Source: Desulfobacterales bacterium
GTDB taxonomy: Bacteria; Desulfobacterota; Desulfobacteria; Desulfobacterales; C00003060
DNA length: 54,267 bases
Direction: 5' to 3'
Assembly: GCA_030616475.1 (NCBI GenBank)
Contig: JAUWXF010000007.1
Span: 1 to 54,267 of the forward strand
Positions 3,661 to 53,339 of the stretch are shown in pieces (position 1 is the stretch's first letter; each line of letters opens with the position of its first letter). Below the pieces are notes generated by a model. The model did no database searches and was not told the origin of the DNA. It saw only the letters and a list, made by a program, of their open reading frames with translations. The position numbers and the translations under genes are program-made.

Positions 3661-3668
3661 TATAAGGG

Positions 3669-27790: not shown

Positions 27791-27922
27791 CAAGAAATAA
27801 CTGCTGATGGCAACGGTCCTGTCCTGAAAGGAGGTGAAAAGACCGAAAAGGATCTGAAGCCGTTGACAGAAGGACAGCAGGAGGCTGTCCAAAAAAGTTA
27901 TAGAATTCAAGGAGGTAAAAAA

Positions 27923-29782: not shown

Positions 29783-29801
29783 AACCCTAACGTTCTCCAA
29801 T

Positions 29802-29833
29802 TGAGGGGGTGGAGGGCTAAGCCTCCACCCCTT
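29802..29833 (+). terminator. Intrinsic-type terminator after fliC
   Basis: GGGGGTGGAGGGCTAAGCCTCCACCCCTTT dyad after stop. Confidence 0.65.
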
Positions 29834-29911
29834 TCCCCTGATTAGAGATTTTGAATTTAGCCACAGACACACACAGACCTGCACAGACATTTTTTACAGA
29901 CAGGAGGGACA

Positions 29912-32236: not shown

Positions 32237-32263
32237 TTGAGCGAAAGCGCTCAATTGAAAGAG

Positions 32264-32333
32264 GACAGAGGGCAGAGGACAGAGAACAGAGGACAGAGAA
32301 CAGAGGGCTGAAAACAGTGGTCAGTGGTCAGTG
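32264..32333. repeat. Ten consecutive degenerate heptamers
   Basis: gacagag ggcagag gacagag aacagag gacagag aacagag ggctgaa aacagtg gtcagtg gtcagtg. Confidence 0.9.
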
Positions 32334-32348
32334 AACACTACGTAATTA

Positions 32349-32480
32349 GTGCCTGTCCGAAAAAGGTTTGTTTATGTCATTTCGACCGAAGGGAGAAATC
32401 TAAAACTCGCGTGTTTTCAATATCATAAGATTTCTCGCTTCGCTCGAAATGACAACTTTGGTGAATTTTCGGACGGACAC
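32349..32480. mobile_element. MITE-like element, TIR GTGYCYGTCCGAAAA, TSD TAATTA
   Basis: Left GTGCCTGTCCGAAAA, right TTTTCGGACGGACAC; TAATTA at 32343-32348 and 32481-32486. Confidence 0.8.
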
Positions 32481-32520
32481 TAATTAACACAATTAGGGTA
32501 AAAGAGAGGAAAATCATACA

Positions 32521-33000
32521 ATGGCGAATATGCAGGCGGTAAACAATTACAGACAAAACCAGATCTTGCTTTCTACACCGGCCGAAACGGTCCTGATGCT
32601 GTATGGGGGGGCAATCAGATTCCTAAGGCAAGCCATAAAGGAATTGGTTGAGAAAAGAAATATGGGAGAGAAGGCAAAACTAATAGAAAAGGCAGTAAAT
32701 ATTATTGACTACTTACAGTCATGTCTTGACAACGACAACGGCGGAGAGATAGCAGACAATCTTGACAGGGTATACGAGTATATGCTCGTGCAATTAACAG
32801 AGGCAAACCTGGAGGATGATGAAAATAAAATAGAAGAGGTAGTGAAGCTGTTGCTCCCATTGACGGAAGCATGGGCTGAAATATGTAGAAAACCAAACGG
32901 CATGAATGATTATCAATCAGATTTAGGGGATAATACCTCCTCGTTTGTTACTGCGCCGGAAGGACAACAGACAGCACGAAAGTTTCACGCACACGTATGA
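32521..33000 (+). CDS. fliS: Flagellar export chaperone FliS
   Basis: NYRQNQILLSTPAETVLMLYGGAIRFLRQAIKELVEK; follows fliD. Confidence 0.93.
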   Translation: MANMQAVNNYRQNQILLSTPAETVLMLYGGAIRFLRQAIKELVEKRNMGEKAKLIEKAVNIIDYLQSCLDNDNGGEIADNLDRVYEYMLVQLTEANLEDDENKIEEVVKLLLPLTEAWAEICRKPNGMNDYQSDLGDNTSSFVTAPEGQQTARKFHAHV

Positions 33001-35643: not shown

Positions 35644-38529
35644 TTAATGTACCGTCTCCTCCCTTACTGTTTCTTCAATCATCTTGTTATAAAGAATCGC
35701 AAGGTTTCTCTGGATAGTCGCATCGTCCGGATTCACGGCAAGAGCATTCTCATAAAGGGAGATTGCTTTTTGTATTTCCCCTATATTCACCCAAAGGTTG
35801 GCCAATGGTTCATAAACCTCCGGTACGTTGGGGGCCAATTCTATAGCCTTTGTAAAGAATATCTCTGCATTTGCGAAATCGTTGTTCTGAAGCGCAATGA
35901 AGCCTATGTCCCGATAAAGGATTGGGTTTGTGTCGTCAACCTCTATGGCTTTTTCAAACACATCGACCGCCTTCTCAGGATCATCTACTGCAAGATAAGT
36001 GTGGGCAAGGCCGTAGTAAGCCTCGACAAGGTGCTTTCCTGTCTCTTGCGCCTCTTCCACAGCCCCTAAATATGCCTTCTCTGCCCTTTCATAATCTTTT
36101 ATCCTGAAATAGAAATATCCTGATTCAAGGTGAGAGCCGTAGTTTGCCTCAGCCTCTTCAAGGAGCTTTTCCATCCTTCCTTTTCTCTCTTCCCATTCCT
36201 GTATCTTCTCATCACAAACCTTGAGCAACTCTTCAATTCTGGCCTTCTGATTCTTACCCTTTACCCCTCGCCTCTCAATTTTTTCTAATACCTCTTTTGC
36301 CTCATAAAATCTGAATTGTTGCAAATACGCCTCAGCAAGGGCAAGATATAGATTGGTACCGGCCGTTGTCCGTTGTCCGTTGTCCGTTGCCTGCCCGCCA
36401 TCGCTCTCGCTCAGGCGAGGCGGGCGGGTCCGTTGACTCGCGACTCCTGACTCCTGCCCTCTGTCCTCTGCCCACTGCCCACTGCCCACTGCCCACTGAC
36501 CACTGTCTTCTCCCTTCTGCCCTCTGTCCTCTGCCCACTGACCACTGACTAAAGGCTCCAAATACCTTACCGCCTGAGTCGCCATCCCGGCTCTCTTATA
36601 AATCATCCCAACCCTGAAGGACCTGTCATATTCTGGTAGGGAGTCATCCATCAATATCCCGTTTACCTTTGCCTCTCGATTAAGTCCTGTTATAAGTTTA
36701 TCCAGTGGTTTGATAAAAAGGGTTATCGCCTCCAGCAGTTCGCCATAGTAGTTCAATCCTCTGATCAACTGTGCCTCTAACTTCTCCCATTTATCCTCTA
36801 TCTCGTCTATCTCCTTGATATCCTGCTTCATTAGATAAAGCTCCAGCTTATAATGATATGCGGCAATAATGTTGAGAATGGGGTGTGCCACCTTTTCTCT
36901 AATCTTCTCTAATTTATCAAGGATGTTATGTAATTGAGGATTTTCTTCCTGCTTCTTTTCCTTTAGTTTTTTTGCCTTATGAATGTATTTCAAGGTCCTT
37001 TCAGCATTTTTCTTTATGTCCGTAAATATTGCCCTTGCATCCTTAACTTGAGAGATAAGCCCATCAAGATTGTAGCTGACTTCACTTTTCATAAGTTCCA
37101 ATAAAATAGAATGAGTATCTATGGGAGCCAAATCACAGTACTCTCCAATAAAATCCGAAAGCCTCATTATCTTTGCGCCCTCTATCGGGAGTCCGCATTC
37201 TGTGGCATTGATGACCTTACCGGAAAATGCTTTTATCTTTTTTTCAAACGAGGTCTTAAAAGAAAGCAGTGTAATTAGAGTATATCTTTTCTCTCCAAAT
37301 ATATCATCTGCCATCTCAGCGCCCTTTCTGTAGTCAGGGACTTGCTTATTCTGGAAGGTACGGAGAAGTTCAGTAGCGTCACCAGCGTGGAATTTTTCCT
37401 CAAATGATAGATCCTGCCCAATAAGGGCTACTGCATTGGCCCCTATATACTCAGCAGCAGCAAAGCCAAGGTGGGCAACAGAGCCTCCAAAACATTCAAT
37501 ATAACCCTTATCCTCCCAAAAACTGCTAAGCCATTGAAAAATGGGATTGCCGGCCACAGTGTTCAAAAACATTGGACCAGGATAGATGTTTACTGTCTCG
37601 GGGGTATACTGGGCAAGGCAAATGAAGGGCACATCCTTAAGGAGGGGGTTGTCCTTGAATACAGCAATATTTTGCGGCAATGGGTCTATTGCCACAAGTA
37701 TATCAGGCACGATGCCGGCAGGTAAAAGTGTTGGCAGGACCACATCTACAGCAATAATTATTGCCCTGCCTTTAGCCTTCTTGAGCAGATGGAAATTCTT
37801 TTCAAGGGATGGGCCACCAGAGACTACTATTGCAGGCCGGCCTTCAAATAGCCCCTTTAATTTAGATACACCGGGTTTCCTTATCAGGCTTGGTACGTTC
37901 GCCATAAATGTATTCATAAACTCTTTGCCCAGTCCGATAGCTGTACCCACACCAGTATCAGACAGTCGTTTTTCTTCTAAAAGCCTTTTATGGAATCTGT
38001 CGTACGCCTCTTCGTTCAGCTTAACTGAAGGATGGTGCTTCACTATCCAGAATTTGCCGTTAATTATCAGATGATGATGGCTGTGAAGCATTGAGAAGTC
38101 ATCTGCATCCTGACCAAGAATTACCTTGACCTTCTCGGACTCCAACAGGTCGGAGAGGTCTCTTGTTTCAAGGGCAGCTCTAAACAATGCCGGGGTGGCC
38201 TCGTATACGAGCAACAAGTGGCCTTTTTCAAACTTCTTGAGGACCTCGTCGGCAAAATATCCGAGGCCAAAGCCAAAGAGAACGGCAACACCCTCTTTTT
38301 CCATTTTACCCAGCAAATCAATCGCCTGATCAGCGCATTTTGTGGGGTCATCGGCGCTGTGGATATAGATTTCTTCTCCATTATCCTTCTTATACAATAT
38401 CCTTGGTTCGCCACTATCGGCATGGAGTACCTTGATCTTATCTTCGTCTATTGCAACTGACTCAATGAGTTCCACCAGATCAGGATGGTGCTTTCCAAGA
38501 GCTTTGATATTCCTTTCATAGAGATTCAT
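35644..38529 (-). CDS. Motility accessory factor (DUF115/MAF) with C-terminal TPRs
   Basis: [64 protein letters not shown] tail; repeat insertion in frame at 36361-36552. Confidence 0.88.
36361..36552. repeat. Heptanucleotide arrays inside the MAF/TPR gene
   Basis: (ccgttgt)n, then gactcct gactcct gccctct gtcctct gcccact x4 gaccact gtcttct cccttct gccctct gtcctct gcccact gaccact. Confidence 0.9.
36390..36428 (-). mobile_element. Short (39-bp) derivative of the 66-bp element inside a CDS
   Basis: CCTGCCCGCCATCGCTCTCGCTCAGGCGAGGCGGGCGGG, flanked by TCCGTTG on both sides. Confidence 0.65.
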
Positions 38530-38722
38530 TATGGTCCTCCTTTAAAAGACCCTAATCCGGGTAAACCGGAAATCCGAAACACAAAAATGGAATGCTGAGT
38601 ACAAAATCGGATTTTCCAGTTTTTCGATCCAATACAGACTGCATGGCTGAGGATGCTAAGAATTCGGAAATGTTCCCATGTCTTTCTCAGAATATCTCCG
38701 TTTCCCGCCATTGGTCCTTATC

Positions 38723-39679
38723 TCAAGAAGCCTTATGCTCCGGGCGCAGCCATATGCCTTTTGGGTCATCACTCGGCTCGTATGTCACAGGGTCATAAAT
38801 GCCTCTGCGAATACGGTGCTGTTTCGCCAATTCAGCCTCTGTTGGAACCTTCTCGCCGGTCCCCAATGTCTGCTCCAGCAGTCGCACCTGTCTAACCATA
38901 TCTGAAAACTCGGCCATAGTCACAGAAAACGGATGATCAGGCCCTGGCAATGATCGGTCAAAGGTTATGTGTTTCTCTATGACAGTTGCTCCCAGCGCTA
39001 CGGCAGCTATGGGTATGAGATTCTCCCGTGAATGATCTGAAATACCTACTGGTAAGTCGAATGTCTCCTTCAATGTGACGATGGCTCGCAAGTTTATTTC
39101 ATCCCATCTTGGTGGATAGTTGGTGACACAATGAAGCAATACAATATCTGTGGAGCCTGCTTGAGCCAACACATCAAGTGCATTTTCGACATCTTGCAGG
39201 GAGCTGGCGCCAGTCGATAGAATCACCCGTTTGCCAGTACGGCCTATTTTTTCTAACAGTGGAAAGAAGGTAATGTCTCCTGAGGCAATTTTATAGGCTT
39301 TAACACCGACCTCTTCTAGCAAATCAACTGCCTCTAAATAAAATGGAGTCGAAATAAACTCAATTCCGTTTTCATCTGATATTCTTTTTAAGGTGTAATG
39401 CCAGGCGTCAGGAAGCTCCAAATTACTGAAGTTGATATAGGCACTGTTGTCCACCCATTTCCCGTCTGACCAGATGCGGGGAGCGACTAACTTGTGTCTA
39501 CGCAAAGTCTGAAACTTCACAGCATCTGCGCCGACTGCTCGGGTCGCACGAATATACTCTTTGGCAGTTTCGAGGTTATCATTATGGTTTGATCCTATTT
39601 CAGCAATCACAATCGTCCTATGTATATTTTGGAGCTTCACAACTTTTATTTCTTCACTCTCAAATGAATTGGCACCCAA
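38723..39679 (-). CDS. NeuB/PseI-like nonulosonate synthase lacking a full SAF (antifreeze-like) domain
   Basis: VIAEIGSNHNDNLETAKEYIRATRAVGADAVKFQT ... PVGISDHSRENLIPIAAVALGATVIEKHITFDRSLPGPDHPFS; ends ~30 aa after RRGIYDP. Confidence 0.85.
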   Translation of the reverse strand: MGANSFESEEIKVVKLQNIHRTIVIAEIGSNHNDNLETAKEYIRATRAVGADAVKFQTLRRHKLVAPRIWSDGKWVDNSAYINFSNLELPDAWHYTLKRISDENGIEFISTPFYLEAVDLLEEVGVKAYKIASGDITFFPLLEKIGRTGKRVILSTGASSLQDVENALDVLAQAGSTDIVLLHCVTNYPPRWDEINLRAIVTLKETFDLPVGISDHSRENLIPIAAVALGATVIEKHITFDRSLPGPDHPFSVTMAEFSDMVRQVRLLEQTLGTGEKVPTEAELAKQHRIRRGIYDPVTYEPSDDPKGIWLRPEHKAS

Positions 39680-39711
39680 GACCGACTTGCATCAATAGGT
39701 TAACGGTTTCA

Positions 39712-41109
39712 TTATAAGCCATGAAAAGATCTCAAAACTATGTCAATGCTTTTTGGGCCATATCTGGACCAGGCCACATGTTTCTTATTGTTGTCAGCAT
39801 GGACGATCTTACTGGGACGATTATTGTCAAAATCTATATCTGGATTTACTCTTTTTGTGAAGATACATTTTCCCTTGTCCAAACAAGATATAAAGACAGA
39901 GTCCGGTGTGACATGTGGCTGCTCTACATACAAGATATCACCATTCAAATGGAAAAGTGTGCCTGGCGTAGAAGCTATCCACGAGCAGTAGGTTATTTTA
40001 ATCTCGTATTCTCCTTCTGCAAGATCAATCAGAAACTTCGTGGGTTCCTCGCCATAAAATAATGTTCTAGTTATGTTGTTGCCAATTTCACGCAACATGG
40101 AATGTACGGGCCGGTCAAAGCCATACATTTTCTCGGGAGTGTAGAGACAATGTTGCTCGGTAACTTTGACCACGGGAGATGCAAAGGAAAACATGTCCGG
40201 CCCAAAAGTGAATAGTTTTACCGCTCCTGTTCTCTTGTAAACAACTTCAACTGCATTCAACGTCCAGCAAGAATTCCCGGGGGTTTTGTTTGAACTGACC
40301 TCAAGCTCCAACCGTGGGGTGGAAAGTCTCAGTCGGTAGCGTACTGTGTAACTGCCCCATGCATCGCTGTGGCATGCCACCCAGACTTTGCCTTTTTCGT
40401 CGACGCTGATTTTTGGCTTCGTCAACCGCACATTGTCAGAAGGGGAAATGGGCTGCGGCGGCGACCACGTCGTCCAGTCCTCCGATGCGGTGAGCCAAAG
40501 CGATTCTTTTTCCTGCTCCATGACGAAAGCAAGATAAAGTGTCTTGTCTGGTCCTACTGCGACATCGGGATATCTTACCTCCGATGTTAAACCGGCAAGC
40601 TCCTCCGGCTCACCCGATTGAACCCCATCCTTTATTTTTGAAATGTAGAGCTTTTTAGAATCTCTGTGAAGAAAAAAAAGCCTCAAAAGGCCGTCAGGCC
40701 CTAGAACCAACCTTGGGTATTCGGTGTTTGACATTCGTTGGAGGACCATCGTGGGCTCACTCCACGAGCGGTAGTCAGTGGATTGGGCTATGAAGATGTT
40801 GCAGATATCTCCATCAGGTGTAAAAGGCGCTTTTCGCGGCTTACGCCACGAATGCCAAGCAAGAAGATAATAGTCCTTCCTGTAGCTCAATATACTAGGC
40901 CCATTGTTATAGCTGTCTTCTCCAGAGACATTCACCGGTTCGGTCCAGTTCACTCCACTTTTTGAAAGAGAGCACCAGACATCCGAACGGGCGGGCATGT
41001 CAGGTGAGCTATATTCATACCATGCGCAAACCAATTCTCTGTCCTTGCCCAATGCTAATGCTGGGTATAAGGAGATATTCACGGACCGGGATACGACGCT
41101 CTGCGTCAT
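39712..41109 (-). CDS. Asp-box (BNR/sialidase-like) beta-propeller protein
   Basis: Repeated SKSGVNWTEP / STDYRSWSEP / SEDWTTWSPP motifs; C-terminal extra domain. Confidence 0.65.
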   Translation of the reverse strand: MTQSVVSRSVNISLYPALALGKDRELVCAWYEYSSPDMPARSDVWCSLSKSGVNWTEPVNVSGEDSYNNGPSILSYRKDYYLLAWHSWRKPRKAPFTPDGDICNIFIAQSTDYRSWSEPTMVLQRMSNTEYPRLVLGPDGLLRLFFLHRDSKKLYISKIKDGVQSGEPEELAGLTSEVRYPDVAVGPDKTLYLAFVMEQEKESLWLTASEDWTTWSPPQPISPSDNVRLTKPKISVDEKGKVWVACHSDAWGSYTVRYRLRLSTPRLELEVSSNKTPGNSCWTLNAVEVVYKRTGAVKLFTFGPDMFSFASPVVKVTEQHCLYTPEKMYGFDRPVHSMLREIGNNITRTLFYGEEPTKFLIDLAEGEYEIKITYCSWIASTPGTLFHLNGDILYVEQPHVTPDSVFISCLDKGKCIFTKRVNPDIDFDNNRPSKIVHADNNKKHVAWSRYGPKSIDIVLRSFHGL

Positions 41110-42674
41110 ATAGCTTGCACCCTTTTTGTGCTAGTGATTTGTGACTGCCGCGTTCGACCTGAAAACCAAGTTGATTGTTCTATGTCATCTTCAAGTCGCC
41201 TCTCACGCTCATCCAAAAGGCGTTGATGTCGGCTTTTGATGGCCTCTTTTCGTTTCTTCAGCCGTTGGTCCTCCTCTTCCTTGTTGGCACTTAGGACATA
41301 GCCAATCGGATTGTACTTCACGATATCGTCGACCTCGGCGTATCGGGCGACGGTGATCGCCTTACCATTGGCGATGCATGTTTCGAGGTCTCTATGGACG
41401 TCATTTTCATTGATAATCGACCCGTTGTGCAGATACGCGATAATTGGCTTTCCAATAACGGTGTTATGTCGCACAAATGATGTGATTAGCCGTAATGAAT
41501 AATTTTCGCCGTAACCTACCTCCTCGAATATGAGAGGGTTAATAAGCAGGTTAGATAAAACGTAATCTCCACGCCTAAGGTAACGAGTCCTTTCTAAAAA
41601 GACTTGATAATTCGTAATTAATTTCTCAGTGTCCTTTACAGAAAGCATTACAGGAACGATCACATCAGCGGATAACAATATTGTGTGAAGCCCTCTAAAA
41701 TCGTCAGAAGAGATGACACAGCGGTAAACTTCATCCTTGTCGATGAAACTTGGGCAAAAATCGCAGGCCAGGCAGCGACGAATATTCTTTTTCGTGATAT
41801 CGATAACCGTGGGCTCTATTTCGCCTTCAAAACATCTAAACATGTCTTCCGTTCGTCTCAGTGCCTCGTTATTGCGGTCTTGTAAGATGAGAAAAAGTAC
41901 CTTTAGAGAATCGTTCAATCTCTTGCCGGAATTTAGTTTACAGATCAGGTCTCCTATACGGCGGCCAGTTCCCATGGATGTTTCAAGCCCATAGCTGTCC
42001 TTGTACATGCTCCCGACATCGCCGGCATGCCCCGTGCCTCCGTACTGCGATGTGGTGTCAGTATCATTGCCCACCCCGAGAAGATCGCAGCGCAAATAAT
42101 CCAGCATTTGGTAAATAAGAGTAGTTTCCTGGCCGCCGTTTCTCTTGGCACCAACTGAAATGCCTGCGTATACCTTCCCCTTAAGATGTGCACGCAGTTC
42201 AGCGTCTCGTGAGATAAAATTCAAAAGAGACTGTGCCACACTACTTCTGTCGCCGAAGTATACAGGACTTGAGACAAGAATGCCTTGAGAGGCAAGCATT
42301 CTGTTTTTGAGTTCATCTAGTTTTCTGGGTTTCCTAGACGCTGGGAAATATTCGCACAAGGAAACATGCCCTATGTCTATATTGTAGTTATGGTATGCTG
42401 CCCAAAGAGCAGCGGCTAGTGCGACCTCTGAGTTGCTGAGTCCCTTTTTTCCCGTGTTCCTTTTTAACTTCTTGTAAATTTCGAGGAACGACTCGCCAGA
42501 CTTACGTCCCGCCTTGAGAAAGTTCTCTAGATGAAGCTCGGATTCCGTCTTTAAGAAGGAAAAGAGCTCTTCTTTAGACGAAAGAGTTCTCAGCGAATCG
42601 GGCAAATCTTGGCTGCCCCACCGCGCGTTTCTTAAGCTTGCTGATATTGCTAGCAATTTGGGTCTGTTTCCCAT
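41106..42674 (-). CDS. Tandem flavodoxin-fold NADPH-FMN reductase-like / Fe-S flavoprotein-like protein
   Basis: Module 1 LAISASLRNARWG, GILVSSPVYFGDRSS; module 2 CLACDFCPSFIDKDEVYRCVISSDDFRGLHTILLSADVIV; 4-nt overlap with downstream propeller gene. Confidence 0.7.
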   Translation of the reverse strand: MGNRPKLLAISASLRNARWGSQDLPDSLRTLSSKEELFSFLKTESELHLENFLKAGRKSGESFLEIYKKLKRNTGKKGLSNSEVALAAALWAAYHNYNIDIGHVSLCEYFPASRKPRKLDELKNRMLASQGILVSSPVYFGDRSSVAQSLLNFISRDAELRAHLKGKVYAGISVGAKRNGGQETTLIYQMLDYLRCDLLGVGNDTDTTSQYGGTGHAGDVGSMYKDSYGLETSMGTGRRIGDLICKLNSGKRLNDSLKVLFLILQDRNNEALRRTEDMFRCFEGEIEPTVIDITKKNIRRCLACDFCPSFIDKDEVYRCVISSDDFRGLHTILLSADVIVPVMLSVKDTEKLITNYQVFLERTRYLRRGDYVLSNLLINPLIFEEVGYGENYSLRLITSFVRHNTVIGKPIIAYLHNGSIINENDVHRDLETCIANGKAITVARYAEVDDIVKYNPIGYVLSANKEEEDQRLKKRKEAIKSRHQRLLDERERRLEDDIEQSTWFSGRTRQSQITSTKRVQAI

Positions 42675-42717
42675 TGTTTTTACTCTATGCCTCCATATGT
42701 TATACGTGTAATGACTT

Positions 42718-43788
42718 TTACAATTGCACCCTCAAAATGGTTTCTGCACCCAGATCAGAAATGATCTTGTCTATGACTTCAGGACCCGACGCAGGCACAA
42801 AGGCACAGCCTTCTTGGAACTGAATCAGGTCAGCACCAATGTTATCCTGTAGCTTGAGAAATCCGTTCATTTCACCTGCCATGTGAAAATCCTGAAGATG
42901 CCTAAGCCAAAATATTGCCTCCTGACGATTGTTCAGGCAACTAGCAACCCCATTTCCAAATACGACTTTTAGCCTTAATTGCCTGGCCTTATCCACCATT
43001 TCCCGCAATGCTGCACAGCTTCCCTGTTTCATCAATTTGAGTTTCACTGCATCGGCGGCCTTCTCCTCAACAGCCCGTTCAAGGGACTCTACATCAGTTA
43101 TCACTTCGTCAAGCATTATAGCCACTGGTGAATTTTTTCTGAGCTCAGCAGTTTGCTTCCAGTTTGAAATCGGGTATGGTTGTTCAAGCACTTCAACCTT
43201 TTCCGGTTCACACGCTTCAGCCAAAGTAAAGCCATCTCTGAATGTAAGGGATTGGTTTGCGTCTATCCGGAGTCTCTCGCCTGGCAACAGGCTTTCCTGA
43301 AATTGCAGGACTCTTGCCTTATCTTTGCTTATGTCGTGAAATCCCACTTTCACTTTAAACACTTGGTATCCTTGCGTGCGCATCCGCTCAAGCGTCTCGG
43401 CTGGACTTTCTCCCGAATCCTCCTGCGCCAAGGCCGCCAGCGGCACACAACCTTCTGCCCGTGGGATCTCGCCAAGCCCCTCTTCTAAGGCGGTCACCAA
43501 AGCCGTATATAGAAATCCATCGATGCCTCTAGGTAAGGCTGACAATGTCTCTGCTACTTCACTCCCTATCCATTGCTGTGCCAAACTATTCCCGGTTTTC
43601 GCAACGGCTTCGAGTGTTGAATCCGAATACCCCGGAAGAGGCGTGCTTTCCCCCCAGCCAGACTGCCCCCCCGCAAGTTCGATGCGTGCCCAGAGGGATT
43701 GCAGAGCCGAAACAGGGCCGTATGACAGCGAGTAAGGACGAAGAAGAGGTAATGTCACCCTGTAAAGTGCTATCTGCTGAATCTTCAT
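42718..43788 (-). CDS. Enolase-superfamily enzyme, MLE/dipeptide-epimerase-like subgroup
   Basis: FKVKVG, RIDANQSLTF, LEQPY, MLDEVIT, VKLKLMKQG catalytic pattern (KxK, D-E-D, K). Confidence 0.82.
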   Translation of the reverse strand: MKIQQIALYRVTLPLLRPYSLSYGPVSALQSLWARIELAGGQSGWGESTPLPGYSDSTLEAVAKTGNSLAQQWIGSEVAETLSALPRGIDGFLYTALVTALEEGLGEIPRAEGCVPLAALAQEDSGESPAETLERMRTQGYQVFKVKVGFHDISKDKARVLQFQESLLPGERLRIDANQSLTFRDGFTLAEACEPEKVEVLEQPYPISNWKQTAELRKNSPVAIMLDEVITDVESLERAVEEKAADAVKLKLMKQGSCAALREMVDKARQLRLKVVFGNGVASCLNNRQEAIFWLRHLQDFHMAGEMNGFLKLQDNIGADLIQFQEGCAFVPASGPEVIDKIISDLGAETILRVQL

Positions 43789-43797
43789 ATCAGAATC

Positions 43798-44757
43798 CTA
43801 TGGCACAAGATGCGAAATGATACGGTTCACACCCAGACCATCCACAATTCTCCTACCAGCCTCTGAAAGCTGTCCGCGTCTTTCAGGGCTTTGTACGCTG
43901 AAAATGAGAGCGGGTATTTCAGCAAGGCGGCCAAGGACAACAACCGAGCCGATTTTCTCCCAGGCTGAGGCATGTTCTTGTTGTTTTTCCGTTTGGGGCC
44001 ATGAAATGATCGGCATACCTATAGCTGCGAACTGGTGGAGCATGCTCCCTCCGGCCAGCACGGCAAGATCATAGTCAATCGTCCTACGCGCAAGATCTTC
44101 CTGCCGCAGCCACCCAACCGCCCGTACGCCGCTTGCTGCATTGCGTGGCAATTCGGCCCCCAGTACATCCACCCCGACATTTTTGCCTGCGGTCCGAGCC
44201 ACTTCAGGAACAAGCCTGTCAAGTTTGTTTGTGGCGTCATCTCCACCTAAGGCAACTAATATATTTTGAATGACGGGCCTTACCCGATAGCCTCTGCGGG
44301 CGTCCAGAAACGCAGGAGCGATGGGAGAAAAGCGCGGACCGAACAAAAATGTCTTAGCTACGCTCTGTCTGTACCTGGACCCGTCAGCTGCAGGCGAGGT
44401 ATTGATTACTACATCCACATCCTCTTCCAGCATGTAGTGATCGTCGAATACTACCACCTTACATCCCGTCCTTTGGCGAAGAAAGCAGCTGAACCGGTTT
44501 GTGTACCTATAGGAGTCCAGGATGCCGATACTCGGCTGAAGCCTGGTAAATTCCTTTTCCACCGGATCCGGCCCGCCCAAGGCTTCTCTGACTCCCACAA
44601 GCCCAAGCTCGTGTAAACGGTTTTCGGGCAGGGGAACCAGCATTTCGGCCTCTGTTTGCAAGGCCTTCATCCTCTGAAACAAAGGATAAAGACGCAATAC
44701 ATGACCCAGCCCGAGCCCGGGGCCTGCATCGGCATACAGTAATGTGGTGTCTTTCAT
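43798..44757 (-). CDS. PseG-like UDP-sugar hydrolase / GT-B fold protein
   Basis: LLYADAGPGLGLGHVLRLYPLFQRMK, VVFDDHYMLEEDVDVVINTSP, LAVLAGGSMLHQFAAIGMPIISWPQTEKQQEHA; start MKDTT at 44757. Confidence 0.75.
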   Translation of the reverse strand: MKDTTLLYADAGPGLGLGHVLRLYPLFQRMKALQTEAEMLVPLPENRLHELGLVGVREALGGPDPVEKEFTRLQPSIGILDSYRYTNRFSCFLRQRTGCKVVVFDDHYMLEEDVDVVINTSPAADGSRYRQSVAKTFLFGPRFSPIAPAFLDARRGYRVRPVIQNILVALGGDDATNKLDRLVPEVARTAGKNVGVDVLGAELPRNAASGVRAVGWLRQEDLARRTIDYDLAVLAGGSMLHQFAAIGMPIISWPQTEKQQEHASAWEKIGSVVVLGRLAEIPALIFSVQSPERRGQLSEAGRRIVDGLGVNRIISHLVP

Positions 44758-46589
44758 ATGTTTAGGTCGAAAGGACATGTTTGGAATAGCACGTCGTGTG
44801 TTGTCCGCATCATGACGACCCCTTCCCTAAAGCCAGGGTCGTGTACCGGGCCGTTTCCAAGGGTCAAGTCGGCCAACCATTCATGAAAGCGGGAGCCAGC
44901 GCACACAGCGAGAGAACTATACCCCCATAGCCTGGCATTGATTTCAATATACTTGAATCGACCATCCCTCGGATCCAACATCCACTCCACCGCGGCTGGG
45001 CCTTTCCAGCTCCCTATGCAACTCAAAAGCCGCTCGGTCTGGGTGATAAGTTCAGGTAAATGTATGCTAATCCCGGCGGTGGCTGGGCCGCCCGTCGGGT
45101 ACAGGGTGCGGAAACTCCGCGACGAAAAACGGCATACAACTCGACCGTCCCAATCATACAATAGGCCAACGAGATGCATACTCCCGACCTTGCCTGGAAT
45201 GTATTCCTGTACGAACAGTTCTGTCTCGGCAGACTCACAAGCTTGGCATGCCTTGTCCAGTGTGGCGGCTTCCGTGATCCCGATCATGCCGTGGCCGTAT
45301 ACCGGTTTTACGATCCACGGCAATGAACAGGTTTTGGCGAACGACTCAAGAATTTTGCTGACTTCCCAGGTGTCACATTGTTTCGGTATGATCACGCCTT
45401 TCGGGCAAGGTATATCATTTTTCCCTGCCACCTGTGTGCTCAATGCCTTGTTGCTAGCAACGCGAAGAACCTCGTAGTTGGGCAAAAGGACGTTTGCCCC
45501 TGAGGCTTTGATCTTTTCACAATTTTGGGCGAGGACCAGAATCTCTTCCTCTATACAAGGTATAATGGCCGATATGTTATGTTCCTCAATAAGCCCACAC
45601 ACTGCTTTGAGGTACTCGTCACTGTTGGATGCCTTTGGCAACACGGCACATGTCACCCCAAATCCGGCAAATTGATACAGGCCAGTGCATAGCGGATCAG
45701 CGTCGGCCGCAACGAGGCGGTATTTGCCTGATTCATGTAGAAAGCGCAGGGTGTTTAGTCCAGGAGGAGCGCCGACAGCGGTCACCAAGACAACTGGTTT
45801 TTTTCCATCTGTATGCAACACAACCGGATTCCTTCTTGTATCTGCCTTCAATGATTTCAAAAGCCCCTCGTTTCTGATGATATGGGCATTGAGCTCATAG
45901 ATAATCGGATGGGTGTCTAAAAATCTTTTAATATCATCGACCGTAAAGTAATTATCTTGACCTATATATAGGTTTTCTATAGTTGCCTTTACGACAAGGA
46001 AATCTTCTTTTTCATCAACGGCAAGTCTATACTGGCTATCATCTGCCTTGTTTTCAACACGGATGATTTGAAACATATCAGGATGATTGCGAATGTATAG
46101 TGTGACATGCTCCCGCTCTGATTTCATCCGCGCTTCTTTCCAGGCCCTTTCAAGTGTGGAAAAATTAAATATCTCGCAACCTAGACCCTCAGCAAAGCGC
46201 CGCGACATATATGCATAATCCACATCAGACTTAATATAGGTTCTCGCGACCTGATCACAGATATCAGGCTGAATCAGCGGACAATCAGCCGTAATTCGTA
46301 CGATATGCTCTGACTGGTATTGCCTTGCGGCCTGGTAATACCTGTCAAGCACATCATTTTCTGAACCTCGATATACTCTGATATTTTCTTGCTGGGCAAA
46401 ATTTTCAATAGGATCATCTTCCTTGTTCACGGTCGTAGCAATGATAATCTTGTCGATCTCCCGGCTAAGCCGTAAGCGCTCTATCTGGTAGCTCAATAAT
46501 GGTCTCCCTAGAACTTCCATAAGTACTTTTCCCGGAAGACGGGTGGAGGTCATCCTGGCCTGAATTATTGCTGTAAATTCGGTTTGCAC
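44754..46589 (-). CDS. SpsF-like cytidylyltransferase fused to an ATP-grasp ligase
   Basis: N-terminus TAIIQARMTSTRLPGKVLMEVLGRPLLSYQIERL; C-terminus LPWIVKPVYGHGMIGITEAATL ... FVQEYIPGKVG ... AAVEWMLDPRDGRFKYIEINARLWG. Confidence 0.85.
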   Translation of the reverse strand: MQTEFTAIIQARMTSTRLPGKVLMEVLGRPLLSYQIERLRLSREIDKIIIATTVNKEDDPIENFAQQENIRVYRGSENDVLDRYYQAARQYQSEHIVRITADCPLIQPDICDQVARTYIKSDVDYAYMSRRFAEGLGCEIFNFSTLERAWKEARMKSEREHVTLYIRNHPDMFQIIRVENKADDSQYRLAVDEKEDFLVVKATIENLYIGQDNYFTVDDIKRFLDTHPIIYELNAHIIRNEGLLKSLKADTRRNPVVLHTDGKKPVVLVTAVGAPPGLNTLRFLHESGKYRLVAADADPLCTGLYQFAGFGVTCAVLPKASNSDEYLKAVCGLIEEHNISAIIPCIEEEILVLAQNCEKIKASGANVLLPNYEVLRVASNKALSTQVAGKNDIPCPKGVIIPKQCDTWEVSKILESFAKTCSLPWIVKPVYGHGMIGITEAATLDKACQACESAETELFVQEYIPGKVGSMHLVGLLYDWDGRVVCRFSSRSFRTLYPTGGPATAGISIHLPELITQTERLLSCIGSWKGPAAVEWMLDPRDGRFKYIEINARLWGYSSLAVCAGSRFHEWLADLTLGNGPVHDPGFREGVVMMRTTHDVLFQTCPFDLNI

Positions 46590-47908
46590 TACGTAATCCT
46601 CTTGAAACCAACAATTGAAGGTGCTCCGACCAATCTATCCTCAATGTCATTTTGATCAAGTGATCGAGCTATTTCCTCAAAAGATTTATCAACCGCTGCT
46701 AAATACTTTTGAACATGATTATCGTTATGTACATACATCGCATAAAACAGATTGGATGCCAAGAAGCCCTGTTCCAGCATGAGTTGGATGAAATAGGCTT
46801 TCATGGCTTGAGCCTTTTCATGTTCAAAGTTGAAATGGCTCATGGGCTTCATCCCGCGAACATTAATTGGACGATTATGCTTCTTGGCCGCATCAGCCCA
46901 ACCTTTCTGGATCTTTTCGCCTATTGAAATCAAATGCTCCGCAGCAGCTAACTTCTTATGTTTCTTTATGGTGGCAATGGCGGCAACAGGACCAATGCGA
47001 TCGGTCCAGTATGTGGAACTGATAAAGGTTTTCTGCACGGACTGCATGATATCCTCTTTCCCGATAATGGCTGCAATGGGATAGCCGTTGCCAAGACCTT
47101 TAGAAAAGACAGCCATGTCCGGAGATACCGTATGCTTCACAAGATGTGCGCCCCCTGTCGTGAATCTAAAACCGGCGGAAATTTCGTCCATAATGAGCAC
47201 CGCTCCTGTTTCATCAGCGATTTCCCTTATGCTTTCAACAAAGCCTGGCTCTGGCTCAAAATTACGAAGGGGCTCCATGACAATGGCAGCCAACGATTTG
47301 CCATGTCTGGAAACAATGCTTTGAAGTTCATCCAAATGATTATATCTGAAGGGAAAAGCCGTGCCTGTAAGCCCCTTAGGTACTCCCGCCGGATTCAAGC
47401 CGGAGATCAGGTGTTCACCAAGGGCGTTTTCTGTTCCTAAATTTGCGGATAGATACCAGTCATGCCAGCCGTGGTAGCCGCAGAATGCAATTTTATCTTT
47501 GCCCGTGTGTGCTCTGGCAATGCGCACAGCAATGGCCATGGCCTCGCCCCCGGTTCGAGCGTAACGAACCATATCTGCCCAGGGATGGAGTTCGCAAAGC
47601 AGTTCAGCCAGTTCAACTTCTTCAGGACAATTCAGAGAACAGCTTGTGCCGTTGGCAACAGCTTCCAAAACAGCAGCGTCTACATCCGGGTCAGCATATC
47701 CCAAAACATTTGCACCTATGCCAGCAATACTCATATCTACGTACTTATTCCCATCCAAATCCCAAACTTCTGCACCTTTGGCCTTGCTGAAATATCCGGG
47801 CCAAACCCCCAGTGAGAACATGTCCGGCCGCTTGGAGAGAAGTTGGGTCATACCCGGAATGCGCTTCCTGGCCCGATCCTGCATATGTAGACTTTTTCTA
47901 AGGTTCAC
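46589..47908 (-). CDS. GSAM-like class III aminotransferase
   Basis: YARTGGEAMAIAVRIARAHTGKDKIAFCGYHGWHDWY, LIMDEISAGFRFTTGG, VFSKGLGNGYPIAAIIG. Confidence 0.88.
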   Translation of the reverse strand: MNLRKSLHMQDRARKRIPGMTQLLSKRPDMFSLGVWPGYFSKAKGAEVWDLDGNKYVDMSIAGIGANVLGYADPDVDAAVLEAVANGTSCSLNCPEEVELAELLCELHPWADMVRYARTGGEAMAIAVRIARAHTGKDKIAFCGYHGWHDWYLSANLGTENALGEHLISGLNPAGVPKGLTGTAFPFRYNHLDELQSIVSRHGKSLAAIVMEPLRNFEPEPGFVESIREIADETGAVLIMDEISAGFRFTTGGAHLVKHTVSPDMAVFSKGLGNGYPIAAIIGKEDIMQSVQKTFISSTYWTDRIGPVAAIATIKKHKKLAAAEHLISIGEKIQKGWADAAKKHNRPINVRGMKPMSHFNFEHEKAQAMKAYFIQLMLEQGFLASNLFYAMYVHNDNHVQKYLAAVDKSFEEIARSLDQNDIEDRLVGAPSIVGFKRIT

Positions 47909-47909
47909 T

Positions 47910-48830
47910 TTAGTGTGCTTTCTTGTCTAGTAGTTTTGGCCATAAAACAGGGTCTAGAATTGTTCTGTCAACTGATTCAAATGCTTGGTGCAAACGCTCT
48001 ATAACGGTTTGGGGTAGATTGGAATTCCAAAAACCCGCATTCTCTTTGACTTGGCCTACTGTTTCCGCTCCAAAAATAATTTTTGCCTCCGGAAATTGCG
48101 TTTTTACGTATCCCAAAGCCAATTCCTGCCTGGTCAGATTGAATTCCTTAATAACAAATTCCAATTTCTCTAAGACTGGTCGTGCAATATTATTCATTTC
48201 AACTGGAAGTTGCTCGCGATCCATTAACAGTAGCCCTTGCAAAAAAACACTTCTGATATACAATTCTTTGCCCTTTTTTCTTGCGAGGTCAAAAACACCG
48301 GCATCGACAAATCTCCTGTCCAATATGTTTGTGGGGAATTGAACCATATCAATTCCAGCGGTCTCCAAGGCTTGCAGGGCCTTTTTGGGAGAATAGACTG
48401 AAACTCCAACCCTATCTACCCTTCCTTCTTTAACAAAACCGAGGATAATTTCTTTTAGCCCTTTCTCCCATAGGTCCAAATGTTCTTCTCTGTGGAGCAT
48501 GATGCCTGCAAGTTTTGAAATGTGAAGGAGGGCTAAGCTTTCATCCAACGCATTTGAAAGTTCTTTCCGGCTCAAATGGTTCAGGCTCGGATCAAACTTA
48601 CTGGTAACCAGAGCGTCTTTGCTTCTCTCCAATTGTGACAGGCAATATCCCAGAATTTCTATACTTCTTCCATAACCCTGTGCCGTATCAAATTCGCGGA
48701 TCCCATGTTTCCAGGCCTCTCGAATAATGGCTTGGCTGGTTGAGAGATCAGGCTGTCCGGTTTCATTGGCAATGCCATAAGGCATGCCAAGCTGGACTGT
48801 GCCCAAAACTAAACGGATCGCATTTTGCAT
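47910..48830 (-). CDS. Aldo/keto reductase family oxidoreductase
   Basis: LVLGTVQLGMPYGIANETGQ, FDTAQGYGRSIEILGYCL, DRVGVSVYSPKKALQAL. Confidence 0.85.
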   Translation of the reverse strand: MQNAIRLVLGTVQLGMPYGIANETGQPDLSTSQAIIREAWKHGIREFDTAQGYGRSIEILGYCLSQLERSKDALVTSKFDPSLNHLSRKELSNALDESLALLHISKLAGIMLHREEHLDLWEKGLKEIILGFVKEGRVDRVGVSVYSPKKALQALETAGIDMVQFPTNILDRRFVDAGVFDLARKKGKELYIRSVFLQGLLLMDREQLPVEMNNIARPVLEKLEFVIKEFNLTRQELALGYVKTQFPEAKIIFGAETVGQVKENAGFWNSNLPQTVIERLHQAFESVDRTILDPVLWPKLLDKKAH

Positions 48831-48926
48831 TAAAAAACTCTTTGATTTTCTCTATTGATGAGAATATTATCTCAGTTTTCAGTGAACCGTGAACCGTCAA
48901 CGGATAACGATCATTCACGTTGCCGC

Positions 48927-49973
48927 CTACCTGCTCATGACCCTGAGAGTCTTGTTTTCCAATGGAAGGCCAACAACTCTGCCTTCATTTTGATGGGACT
49001 CGTGTATTGCAAGGGCTATTTCAAGGGCGGCCATACCGTCAGACGGACCGCTTATGTTCTCTGCCTTTCCTTCCATACACGCTACAAGGTGCTCGACAGC
49101 CTCAATCCACAAGTTATTCTCCTTCAAGTCCGTCTCCTTCCTGTACAGTTCAACAAGCCCTGTCTCTGTCCTGCTTTCTTCCGCGAGACATAGCTCAAAG
49201 AGCCAGTTACCTATCCTTATCCTGCCGTTAGTACCCATTATGTCAAATTCGAATATGAAGTATCCCTTGCTATCAGCGTGCACCGTAGCGTATACGCCAC
49301 TGTCAAAACAGATTAGCGCATAGCCCCCGGTATCCTGAGAAATAAGATTCTTTGTGGAGTCAAATGCCTCCAAACTCCCTTGAACCCAGCTTGCATCTCC
49401 GAAAAGGAATCTCAGGACATCAAAGGCATGCGTGCCCGTATGGATCATGTTACCGCTAAAATGGGTCACTACCGAGACGGGCTCTCCAATTACGCCGTCT
49501 GATATCAATTCCCTGGCAAGCTTGTAGGCTGAACTCCAGCGCCTCATATGAGATATGATAAGTATCGCCCCGTGATCTTCAGACAACCTCACCATCTCGT
49601 CAGCTTCAGACAAAGATGTTGCAAATGCCTTTTCACACCATATCCCCTTTACCCCCGCATGTATGGCGTCTGATACCATATTGAAACGCTGTGGTGCATA
49701 GGCACATATGCTTATGATATCAGGAGACTCCTTTTCTAGCATTTCACGATAGTCAAGATAGACATTGTCGATCCTATACTCTTTGGAAAAGTCATGAATT
49801 CTATCAGCCCTTATATCAGCGGCTGCCACGATCTCTGTTCTATCAACAGCCTGATAAGCCCCTGCATGCGTACACGGCTTATTCGGAATAAGAGGGTCCT
49901 TATCCAGCAACCACGCCACCCTTCCACAGCCTATTATTGCAGCTTTATATGTTTTGTCAGTCATCGTACTCAC
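48927..49973 (-). CDS. Gfo/Idh/MocA-family oxidoreductase
   Basis: KAAIIGCGRVAWLLDKD, EIVAAADIRADRIHDFSKEYRIDNVYLDYREML, GVKGIWCEKAFATSLSEADEM. Confidence 0.88.
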   Translation of the reverse strand: MSTMTDKTYKAAIIGCGRVAWLLDKDPLIPNKPCTHAGAYQAVDRTEIVAAADIRADRIHDFSKEYRIDNVYLDYREMLEKESPDIISICAYAPQRFNMVSDAIHAGVKGIWCEKAFATSLSEADEMVRLSEDHGAILIISHMRRWSSAYKLARELISDGVIGEPVSVVTHFSGNMIHTGTHAFDVLRFLFGDASWVQGSLEAFDSTKNLISQDTGGYALICFDSGVYATVHADSKGYFIFEFDIMGTNGRIRIGNWLFELCLAEESRTETGLVELYRKETDLKENNLWIEAVEHLVACMEGKAENISGPSDGMAALEIALAIHESHQNEGRVVGLPLENKTLRVMSR

Positions 49974-51147
49974 GCAATATCCCGCAGACCTTTTCTACTA
50001 CCCGTTCCATATCACTTGTCTTCATTGCCGGATAGAGAGGGAGGGTAATCGCCCTGGCAAAATATTCCTCTGAATGAGGACAGATCCCTTTTTCATATCC
50101 CAGTCCCTGGTAATACGGCTGCAAGTAGACAGGTATATAATGAACATTGACTCCTATCCCATTTTCCCTGAGCTTTCTAAATACCGAGTCCCTGTTTCCC
50201 CTTTTGAGTTGAATGACATACAAATGCCAGGCATGTTCTTCATTGTCACCAGGAGGAAGGGTTATATGATCCTCAAGACCTTTGAATGCCTGGTTGTAGT
50301 AATTCGCAATTTCTCTCCTTTTTCGTATGAACATGTCTATTTTCTTCAACTGGCTCATACCGAGTGCGGACTGAAGGTCTGTCATTCGGTAATTGAATCC
50401 CAGATCAAGCATCTCGTAATAAAAGGGCATGGAGCATGGAGCATGGAGCATGGGGTTCTGAATTTTTCCATTTATCCTCGCAAATTTTGACTGGTCGCGG
50501 GTGATACCATGGTTGCGAAACAAGCGCATTCGCTCAGCCAATTCGGCATCATCTGTGGTTATCATTCCCCCTTCACCGGTTGTGATGTGTTTTACCGGAT
50601 GAAAGCTGAAGACAGTGAGGTCCGCCAGCGTGCCCACTCTTTTTCCCTTATATTCGGCCCCAAGGGCATGGCAGGCATCTGCAATCAGGATCAGACCATG
50701 CTTTCTAGCAATGGCCTGAAGTGAATCATAGTCGCAGGGCTGTCCGGCATAATCTACTGCTACGATTGCTTTGGTTCGGGGTGTGATTTTTGCCTCTACC
50801 TCATTGGGGTCAACAAGCAGAGTATCCGGCTCAACGTCTGCAAAGACAGGTGTTCCTTCCTGAAAAACCACGCTATTCGCTGTAGCCACAAATGTCATGG
50901 GCGGCACAATGACTTCATCCCCTGGACCAATGCCTGCGGCATACATGGCTGCATGCAGGGCTGCGGTGCCGCTGGTTACGGCCACGGCGAATTTGGCCCC
51001 CACATAACCGGCAAAAGCCTGTTCAAATTCTCTCACCTTGGGACCCTGGGTAAGCCAGTCTGACCGAAGGACCTCAACGACCGCCTGGATGTCGTCCTCA
51101 TCAATCCATTGACGAGCGTAAGGAATATACGATTGTTCACAGTTCAC
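49957..51147 (-). CDS. pseC: PseC-like aminotransferase (DegT/DnrJ/EryC1); ORF open to 51285, likely GTG start near 51147
   Basis: YIPYARQWIDEDDIQAVVEVLRSDWLTQGPKVREFEQAFAGYVGAKFAVAVTSGTAALH; FSFHPVKHITTGEGG; LGFNYRMTDLQSALG. Confidence 0.88.
   Translation of the reverse strand: MNCEQSYIPYARQWIDEDDIQAVVEVLRSDWLTQGPKVREFEQAFAGYVGAKFAVAVTSGTAALHAAMYAAGIGPGDEVIVPPMTFVATANSVVFQEGTPVFADVEPDTLLVDPNEVEAKITPRTKAIVAVDYAGQPCDYDSLQAIARKHGLILIADACHALGAEYKGKRVGTLADLTVFSFHPVKHITTGEGGMITTDDAELAERMRLFRNHGITRDQSKFARINGKIQNPMLHAPCSMPFYYEMLDLGFNYRMTDLQSALGMSQLKKIDMFIRKRREIANYYNQAFKGLEDHITLPPGDNEEHAWHLYVIQLKRGNRDSVFRKLRENGIGVNVHYIPVYLQPYYQGLGYEKGICPHSEEYFARAITLPLYPAMKTSDMERVVEKVCGILREYDD
50427..50454. repeat. 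Heptanucleotide array (gcatgga)3+gcatggg inside pseC
   Basis: gcatggagcatggagcatggagcatggg. Confidence 0.9.
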
Positions 51148-51476
51148 TGTTTTCCGTTTTTGTCCCTTCTTCACCACAGAGGCACGGAGGACAAAGAGTT
51201 TATTATCTTTTTTATCCAATCGGGAGACGGCGATTGGATAAAAGATCCCATCCGCCTGCGGCGGAATGTTCTCAAGATCGAACAAGGTCGTTTATGTTCA
51301 TGTAACCGTGACCATAGAAGTAAAAGCGCCTTGTCCGCCTCGGGCGGACTGATGGTTTTGATTTGCCGGTATCTCCCGGCAAATCAAAAAGCCTATATCC
51401 TCTGTGTCCTCTGTGTCTCTGTGGTGAAAATCAATCTCTTTTTTACGTTTCCGCTTGTTTTCTTGTTGATGACCAG

Positions 51477-52829
51477 CTACCGGTCCGCAGCGAGTCGCCC
51501 TCCGCTTTCCGGTATACCCTCCTCAGAATTAAGCATGTTCAGAATAACCTTTTCATTTAACTTGTGAATGGTCGATAGCAATTTGTAAGCGGAATCCTCT
51601 TCCCACAACGAAGAACTATGTATGATTTCCCTCAAGTCCTCTACCCTCAGCCACTCGTCATTGTTATCGCTGGTATAGACAAAGCCCTCGGGTAACCTTT
51701 CGCAGTCTTTGTAATTCTGTCTTTTCCACCATGAATGGTTGGGCATAATCACATACATGCCGTTGTACATTACTGTATTTCTCCCTTCCTCTTCCGTGAT
51801 CAGAGCCTCGTGGAGCTTTTCCCCCGGTCTGATCCCGATAACCTCAATCTCACATTCAGGCGCTATTGCTTGGGCCAGGTCCATGATCTTCATACTCGGA
51901 ATCTTGGGAACGAAGATTTCTCCTCCCTGCATGTGGCAAAGGGTATTGATAACCAGCTCAACCGCCTGATCGAGCGTTAGCCAGAATCTGGTCATTCGTT
52001 TGTCGGTTATGGTTATCTTACCCGTTTTTTTCTGCTCCTTAAACAGGGGGATAACGCTTCCACGGCTCCCAATAACATTTCCATAGCGCACACAGCTAAA
52101 TCGCGTACCTCTTGGCCCTGAATAAGAATTGCCATGAATAAATATTTTGTCGGCACAAAGCTTTGTGGCACCGTACAGATTGACAGGGCTCACCGCTTTG
52201 TCCGAACTTAGGGCAACTACTTTTTTGGCACCCGTGTCAATGGCTGCATCAATGACATTCCTTGCTCCGTGAATGTTCGTTTTGACTGCCTCGAAAGGGT
52301 TGTATTCGCATGCCGGCACCTGTTTGAGCGCTGCGGCATGGATAACAATATCCACACCTTCCATGGCCCTTTTCAGACGATCAGCGTCTCGCACATCCCC
52401 GATGAAGTAGCGCATGGGTGAATCATCGGCATCCGTGAAGTGCTGACGCATCTCGTGCTGCTTTAATTCATCCCTACTGTATATTCTAATTGCCTTGGGA
52501 TGATATTTTTCCAGCATGATCTTTGTAAAATGTTTGCCAAATGAGCCTGTCCCCCCGGTTAATAGAATAGACTGCTTTTCCCAGTTTATCTTTCCGATGT
52601 CCGCATTTCCCTTTCTGAGAATATTCCTGGCTTCAGCGATGGTTCTGTTTTTTCGGTAAAGTATGTTCTTGATTTGTCTTAGTTTATCAATGTCTTCATT
52701 AGAATATCTCCGTTGCCCGCCATTGGTCCGTTTGGGCCTTACCAGGTCAGAAAACTCCGTTTCCCAATACCGGATCGTCGATTTAGGCACCTGTAATTTT
52801 TCGCTTACTTCTTGGATTCTGTATTTCAT
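51477..52829 (-). CDS. pseB: MerR-type HTH fused to PseB-like UDP-GlcNAc 4,6-dehydratase (ATG 52829)
   Basis: MKYRIQEVSEKLQVPKSTIRYWETEFSDLVRPKRTNGGQRRYSNEDIDKLRQIK then KQSILLTGGTGSFGKHFTKIMLEKYHPKAIRIYSRDELKQHEMRQHF. Confidence 0.88.
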   Translation of the reverse strand: MKYRIQEVSEKLQVPKSTIRYWETEFSDLVRPKRTNGGQRRYSNEDIDKLRQIKNILYRKNRTIAEARNILRKGNADIGKINWEKQSILLTGGTGSFGKHFTKIMLEKYHPKAIRIYSRDELKQHEMRQHFTDADDSPMRYFIGDVRDADRLKRAMEGVDIVIHAAALKQVPACEYNPFEAVKTNIHGARNVIDAAIDTGAKKVVALSSDKAVSPVNLYGATKLCADKIFIHGNSYSGPRGTRFSCVRYGNVIGSRGSVIPLFKEQKKTGKITITDKRMTRFWLTLDQAVELVINTLCHMQGGEIFVPKIPSMKIMDLAQAIAPECEIEVIGIRPGEKLHEALITEEEGRNTVMYNGMYVIMPNHSWWKRQNYKDCERLPEGFVYTSDNNDEWLRVEDLREIIHSSSLWEEDSAYKLLSTIHKLNEKVILNMLNSEEGIPESGGRLAADR

Positions 52830-52869
52830 TTCGTTTCGCTCCCCATTTTCCATTTTCCGTTGACCGTTG

Positions 52870-52911
52870 CCTGCCCGCCATCGCTCTCGCTCAGGCGAGG
52901 CGGGGGGGGGG
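52870..52911 (-). mobile_element. Short derivative of the 66-bp element with G-run, upstream of pseB
   Basis: CCTGCCCGCCATCGCTCTCGCTCAGGCGAGGCGGGGGGGGG between ccgttg repeats. Confidence 0.65.
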
Positions 52912-53339
52912 TCCGTTGTCTGTCGGTGAACGGAAAACATTCTCGTTGTTATTTCCTTTTTCGGCTAAGAATTGACAAAACTTTAATTTAACTTTTAGGT
53001 TCACTTTAAGGCCTGCAACCCTTATGCCATGATTATTGATGCCTGTTTTCGCTGGAAAACCACTTGGTTAAGATGGGCAATACCTGGTGGGCAGAAATGA
53101 TGGCAGGCAAATCCTGCCTGGCCCCGGGCAGAAAAGTCAATCTTGTGACGTTAGAAGTTGAAGAATTTGCCGGTCACATAGCATAGCGCAGAGTGCAGAG
53201 GGCAGAGTGGATAGCGTAGAAGGAAGAATCATAGGGTCATTGGGTCCATTGGAATGTGAAATTGATTCGATCCCTCTTGCTTTTTGGGTTTTGAGATGGT
53301 AAATTGATACCTGAACGAAGCTGCCAAGGAGGTTAATTT

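Follow-up and report, generated by a model that had tools for sequence, protein, structure and literature searches.

Pseudaminic acid for flagellin glycosylation is made and attached by a canonical set of proteins (PseB, PseC, PseH, PseG, PseI and PseF, with Maf), and variants of such systems have been described. In Clostridium botulinum the flagellar glycosylation island varies from strain to strain and nonulosonate masses change (PMC2674064), mutants in the sfm genes of Shewanella oneidensis have flagellin of altered mass (PMC3765264), and in Clostridium difficile an ATP-grasp mutant loses the terminal peptidylamido sugar of type B flagellin (PMC5207246). ATP-grasp genes in flagellin loci and strain-variable nonulosonate glycosylation islands are, then, already known. 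Here we describe a locus in a 54,267-nucleotide stretch of DNA from a Desulfobacterales bacterium (contig JAUWXF010000007.1, positions 1 to 54,267; hereafter the window), in which a minus-strand run of 12 genes spanning 35644-52940 adjoins the genes for flagellin, FliD and FliS. On balance, we favor the reading that positions 39137-45838 constitute an exchangeable N-acylation cassette, placed within a locus that makes a CMP-nonulosonate for Maf-dependent flagellin glycosylation.

The main argument for this reading combines a block exchange in a sister genome with the absence of PseH. A genome of the same genus, G005, also carries this locus, bounded by MerR-PseB on one side and Maf/FliS/FliD on the other, and both flanks share 88-94% DNA identity with the window. 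This identity ends at window position 45839, four codons before the stop of the G005 spsF gene, and returns at 39136, inside neuB. The intervening 6.7 kb of the window (39137-45838) hold the ATP-grasp half of a cytidylyltransferase-ligase fusion gene (44754-46589), a PseG-like gene (43798-44778), an enolase (ENO, 42718-43788), a tandem flavodoxin-fold protein (FLAV, 41106-42674), an Asp-box beta-propeller (PROP, 39712-41109) and the N-terminal half of a NeuB-family synthase (38723-39679). G005 has 7.3 kb in their place, with no DNA homology between the two blocks except for one weak 145-bp match inside neuB, and these encode another PseG-like protein, a 224-aa open reading frame (ORF), a methyltransferase, LuxE (Pfam PF04443), a hexapeptide-repeat protein and a product judged LuxC-like by eye. 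The acylation genes, the PseG-like gene and half of neuB therefore switch together while the sugar-core genes and maf stay constant, and the genes that switch are those that should need to recognize the substituent. In a hidden Markov model (HMM) search of the whole window genome, which is ~92% complete, the best match to PseH scored 23.6 bits against a cut-off of 93.1, in agreement with the initial annotation, and PseH was not found in the G005 genome either. Because the genes expected to recognize the substituent are exchanged, the core and Maf are retained, and PseH is absent from both genomes, the cassette would appear to provide an alternative N-acylation. Within this one genus a whole block of nonulosonate decoration genes can be replaced, hydrolase and half-synthase included, and this suggests a route by which flagellar sugars diversify.

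The proposed pathway would begin with PseB and PseC producing UDP-4-amino-4,6-dideoxy-AltNAc. In place of PseH-type acetylation, a carboxylic acid would be linked to the free amine of this sugar: ENO would shape the acid through proton abstraction alpha to the carboxylate (epimerization or beta-elimination), FLAV would contribute to its shaping as a redox enzyme of the flavin mononucleotide (FMN)/Fe-S type, and the ATP-grasp ligase would activate the acid and join it to the amine as an amide. The cognate PseG-like hydrolase, the SAF-truncated NeuB and the SpsF-type cytidylyltransferase would then convert the acylated sugar into a CMP-nonulosonate, and PROP may have an auxiliary binding or processing role in the cytoplasm. 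What we observe is the gene set, its conservation, the exchange of the cassette and the lack of PseH; each step after PseC we infer, and likewise which nitrogen is acylated and which acid is used.

If ENO, FLAV and PROP were unrelated passengers of a standard pseudaminic acid locus, their association should not recur. FLAV was indeed absent from 21 of 21 same-genus genomes searched, so that these genes are not needed for the core pathway, which is what a passenger would look like. Among a 395-genome sample of the phylum, strong FLAV relatives (E below 1e-60) occurred in just two genomes, G424 and G418, the latter from the same order as the window genome and matching a Desulfobacteraceae record (L092). 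Both have ATP-grasp, ENO and FLAV genes side by side in that order, and in G424 the trio is accompanied by PseB, PseC, NeuB and a cytidylyltransferase-PROP fusion. An alignment of the three FLAVs, used to scan ~85,000 genomes, yielded 77 loci from more than ten phyla (78 including the window); the scan was seeded with FLAV peptides, and the frequencies that follow apply to FLAV carriers. Of the 37 loci with ENO, 33 have it no more than 300 bp from FLAV, and in 36 both genes share a strand. Since ENO-like genes (E<=1e-40) are present in merely 21 of the 395 phylum genomes, chance adjacency is excluded. This repetition of co-occurrence and gene order in many phyla, the cassette swap in the sister species and the missing PseH largely refute the passenger explanation, which we regard as very improbable. 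The initial annotation had counted the ATP-grasp, enolase, flavoprotein and propeller genes as parts of one cluster and had inferred a product with an unusual decoration. The neighborhood survey shows that these genes recur together and are not chance neighbors, and an unusual N-acyl decoration is the best reading, because the set recurs, its slot is occupied in the sister by alternative acylation genes and PseH is missing.

The FLAV loci fall largely into two types. ENO and ATP-grasp genes occur without an acyl-adenylating enzyme (ANL) in 31 of the 78 loci and an ANL alone in 26, while four loci have both sets and four have only one of ENO or ATP-grasp. A carrier protein with a DSL-type motif lies between FLAV and the ANL in 15 loci, and the ANL loci include an MBOAT gene in 17 cases and an AAC(3)-family N-acyltransferase (Pfam PF02522) in seven. 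In the FLAV tree the two contexts are clustered, with four changes required. Since ENO/ATP-grasp and ANL/carrier/acyltransferase sets alternate beside it, FLAV would thus be the constant partner of two ways to activate a carboxylate and pass it to a sugar. More tentatively, and as a possibility rather than an expectation, we propose that FLAV defines a widespread system that makes an acid for surface glycans: a tandem FMN/Fe-S flavodoxin-fold enzyme would prepare the carboxylic acid, and either of two exchangeable routes (ATP-grasp with a new enolase clade, or ANL with carrier and acyltransferase) would attach it, a sialidase-fold propeller taking part inside the cytoplasm in the nonulosonate version. 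The survey draws attention to a trio of uncharacterized enzymes and to two alternative ways of activation, and the acid should be findable by glycoproteomics in dozens of named genomes. Additionally, a glyoxalase/VOC-family gene lies beside FLAV and ANL in L103, L105 and L077, three loci being too few for inference, where its product is possibly an epimerase replacing ENO. The neighbors of FLAV and ANL in L082 and L084 are an aldehyde-dehydrogenase-like gene and one of ~220 aa, which Pfam classes as PNPOx-like in L082; glycan genes were not recognized nearby, which makes this a possible third, non-glycan context.

FLAV and PROP are almost without a curated family by HMM search. FMN_red matches the first half of FLAV, and the AlphaFold model (predicted local distance difference test score, pLDDT, 92) has two flavodoxin-like domains, the first WrbA-like. 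The flavodoxin fold and GGQET loop of the WrbA/FMN_red group are present, but in tandem and with a Cys motif (C-x2-C-x2-C-P-x(10-11)-C), the type of which makes an Fe-S cluster likely. This motif, a KRNGGQET segment and a C-terminal ER-R--R block are kept in all 72 aligned FLAVs. No PDB chain among those listed spans both halves, and the Foldseek matches are single-domain WrbA-type proteins, which inform on the fold and not on the substrate. The ATP-grasp domain has the expected fold with its catalytic Lys and acidic/Asn metal ligands; K114, K161 and N284 are invariant and E282 nearly so.

ENO is an MLE-subgroup enolase (MR_MLE_C) that retains both catalytic lysine motifs (KxK and the second Lys) and the D/E/D metal ligands, all invariant, with the motif series KxK, DAN, EQP, LDE, KxK, GNGV and E-x-N-G. 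Its clade has a support of 100, and a profile search of the PDB matched many enzymes of the MLE subgroup, with no function standing out as nearest. Dipeptide epimerases carry a DxD motif at the eighth strand. None of the 33 ENOs has it, E-x-N-G standing in its place. The amino-acid-activating adenylating enzymes, for their part, bind the alpha-amino group through an Asp, and this residue is missing in 20 of 20 aligned ANLs beside FLAV, which points to an acid other than an alpha-amino acid as their substrate. Both results tell against the suggestion of the initial annotation that the decoration is an aminoacyl or epimerised dipeptide group. Attachment of an amino acid or epimerised dipeptide by the ATP-grasp ligase does have precedents, in the ATP-grasp-dependent peptidylamido sugar of C. 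difficile type B flagellin (PMC5207246) and in the N-methyl-glutamyl legionaminic acid of C. botulinum Langeland-type flagellin (PMC2674064, PMC13317340), and the ENO clade has members in methylaspartate mutase operons; with both residue signatures lacking, we nevertheless judge it quite unlikely. The operons concerned (L151, L152, L153, L154 and L155) hold the methylaspartate (glutamate) mutase genes GlmS, GlmL and GlmE, and a canonical methylaspartate ammonia-lyase was found in none of twelve genomes searched, including the sources of these five loci. The enolases of these operons are candidates for a non-canonical methylaspartate enzyme, and their setting without the canonical lyase suggests that the clade acts on amino- or hydroxy-diacids. 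A methylaspartate link is not proposed for the ENO of the window, the module genomes G000, G418 and G424 having no such mutase.

PROP was found in seven loci of about five lineages, all of which also have NeuB, ATP-grasp, ENO and FLAV: the window, L038 (Spirochaetia), L090 (Desulfobulbaceae), L108 (Desulfocapsa), L094 (Omnitrophota) and L100 and L102 (Parcubacteria group). Full-length copies are limited to two of the 395 phylum genomes, those of the window and G424, both FLAV carriers. Since every PROP locus has NeuB and full-length copies occur just in FLAV genomes, the distribution of PROP ties it to the nonulosonate version of the module. Its BNR_2 match is weak and below cut-off; Asp boxes and a propeller are present in a model of medium quality (pLDDT 79.5), with an inserted beta-rich region, and no signal peptide was seen. 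As candidates for the Arg triad of sialidases, R89, R340 and R431 are invariant in six aligned rows, one of them a fragment, as sequence positions only. A sequence search of the PDB with PROP gave no matches. Foldseek matches were mixed (five-bladed hydrolases, sialidases and CylK) with low template modeling (TM) scores, and no enzymatic activity was assigned.

Several observations weigh against an N-acylation cassette acting as proposed. The swap is seen in one sister genome only, and the host genome is a metagenome-assembled genome of 3.79 Mb in 360 contigs. Of the FLAV loci, 13 of 78 have neither ENO, ATP-grasp nor ANL, and the module is also present without NeuB (e.g., L036), so that it is not nonulosonate-specific. 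The ENO clade includes catabolic relatives without FLAV, some of which (E ~1e-94) lie beside methylaspartate mutase genes. Finally, the fusion of SpsF to ATP-grasp could mean that the ligase acts on the free or CMP-nonulosonate and not on the UDP-sugar. An explanation built on this point has the ATP-grasp act late, on a free or CMP-linked nonulosonic acid (7-amino-Pse-like), with the ENO/FLAV-made acid still being attached. The fusion in the window would suit it, as would the PROP-SpsF fusion in L035 and L090 and the 274-Da mono-N-acetyl nonulosonic acid with a further moiety on Shewanella flagellin, whose locus has the ATP-grasp SfmE (PMC3765264). However, ATP-grasp is a separate gene in the other NeuB loci, and the fusion point coincides with a recombination breakpoint and may be incidental. 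Co-exchange of PseG and half of NeuB suggests, moreover, that the sugar already carries its substituent when it reaches those steps, and late action of the ligase therefore seems to us unlikely. SpsF has three kinds of fusion partner, namely ATP-grasp (window), PROP (L035/L090) and a GSAM-like aminotransferase, the last in a Nitrospirae record (L101, 4760-6790).

The remaining genes of the run complete the locus in which we place the N-acylation cassette. An HMM search of the ORFs recovered on the minus strand all genes named in the initial annotation, and the near gap-free packing reported there holds, with intergenic gaps of -25 to +96 bp and two exceptions of ~190 bp (NeuB/Maf and PseC/PseB). 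The end at 52829 given in that annotation corresponds to the likely start of MerR-PseB at a downstream ATG (MKYRIQ...), while the ORF itself reaches 52940. This gene (51477-52940; TIGR03589, MerR_1) encodes a MerR helix-turn-helix domain fused to PseB, the UDP-GlcNAc 4,6-dehydratase/5-epimerase, which scores 510 bits against a cut-off of 408. The fusion of this DNA-binding domain is kept in G005, and MerR-PseB is possibly a self-regulating biosynthetic enzyme. PseC (49957-51285), the UDP-4-amino-4,6-dideoxy-AltNAc transaminase, scores 499 bits against 424 (TIGR03588). By HMM, a Gfo/Idh/MocA oxidoreductase (48927-49973), an aldo/keto reductase (AKR, 47910-48830) and a GSAM-like class III aminotransferase (46589-47908; no equivalog cut-off reached) follow. 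The fusion protein consists of an SpsF-type cytidylyltransferase (N-terminal ~250 aa; CTP_transf_3) and a PylC-like ATP-grasp ligase (C-terminal ~345 aa); SpsF stands alone in the sister species, and ATP-grasp does so in other loci. The PseG-like nucleotide-sugar hydrolase is below cut-off (TIGR03590, 80 bits against 154) and retains the G-x-GH motif (GLGLGHVLR). NeuB likewise falls short of the PseI model (253 bits against 340), and its alignment has 28 residues past the RR motif against 54-63 in other relatives; G005 and L038 share with the window a SAF domain shortened to ~28 residues, and L113 has hardly any of it left. Since the sister species has the same truncation, it is not an assembly error. 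Shewanella needs a NeuB of 290 aa to modify its flagellin (PMC3765264), and the short form is therefore probably functional. The Maf protein (35644-38529; Maf_flag10_N, MptE-like, TPRs) is a flagellin glycosyltransferase of the MptE-like kind with a 7-bp-repeat insert. Flagellin, FliD and FliS (27782-33000, plus strand) provide a flagellar context that is the same in the sister species; the link to flagellin made in the initial annotation applies to this locus, while the module elsewhere is not flagellin-specific.

Short repeats of 7-bp units (CAGTGGG, CAGAGGA, ACAACGG and ATGCTCC types) occur in frame within coding genes or at their beginning, at 36363-36547 (maf), 50427-50500 (pseC) and 52843-52908 (5' end of the merR-pseB ORF), and in L124 at 2302-3723 (pseC). 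A 66-bp element is shared by 36363-36428 and 52843-52908 with 91% identity. Phase variation of maf is conceivable, since a one-unit slip would shift its frame.

In the open-access literature searched, no paper combining a nonulosonic acid with the enolase superfamily was found, the Shewanella paper was alone in combining one with ATP-grasp (PMC3765264), and none was found to describe the pairing of FLAV with ENO, the ANL alternative, the association of PROP or breakpoints within genes. The sfmABCDE locus of S. oneidensis is likewise a nonulosonate flagellin-modification locus with an ATP-grasp gene, and its NeuB is short (290 aa) as in the window, but a thiamine pyrophosphate enzyme, a further gene and a methyltransferase replace ENO, FLAV and PROP, and the operon is without PseG and SpsF (PMC3765264). 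The C. difficile genes CDR20291_0244-0247 share the need for an ATP-grasp protein (carbamoyl-phosphate-synthetase-like) in making the terminal peptidylamido sugar, whereas no nonulosonate genes are described there and the partners are an ornithine cyclodeaminase and a FemAB-like protein instead of ENO and FLAV (PMC5207246). Dlt-type systems have the three-part plan of the type II (ANL) FLAV loci, namely adenylating enzyme, carrier protein and MBOAT; this plan is not in the window, and the adenylating enzymes of FLAV loci differ in lacking the amino-acid Asp and in the addition of FLAV. Compared with the canonical pseudaminic acid pathway, the window has PseB and PseC above their cut-offs, PseG-like, NeuB-family and cytidylyltransferase proteins, and Maf adjacent to flagellin, but has no PseH, an SpsF-type cytidylyltransferase in place of PseF and a SAF-truncated NeuB, and it adds a Gfo/AKR/GSAM set and the ATP-grasp/ENO/FLAV/PROP cassette.

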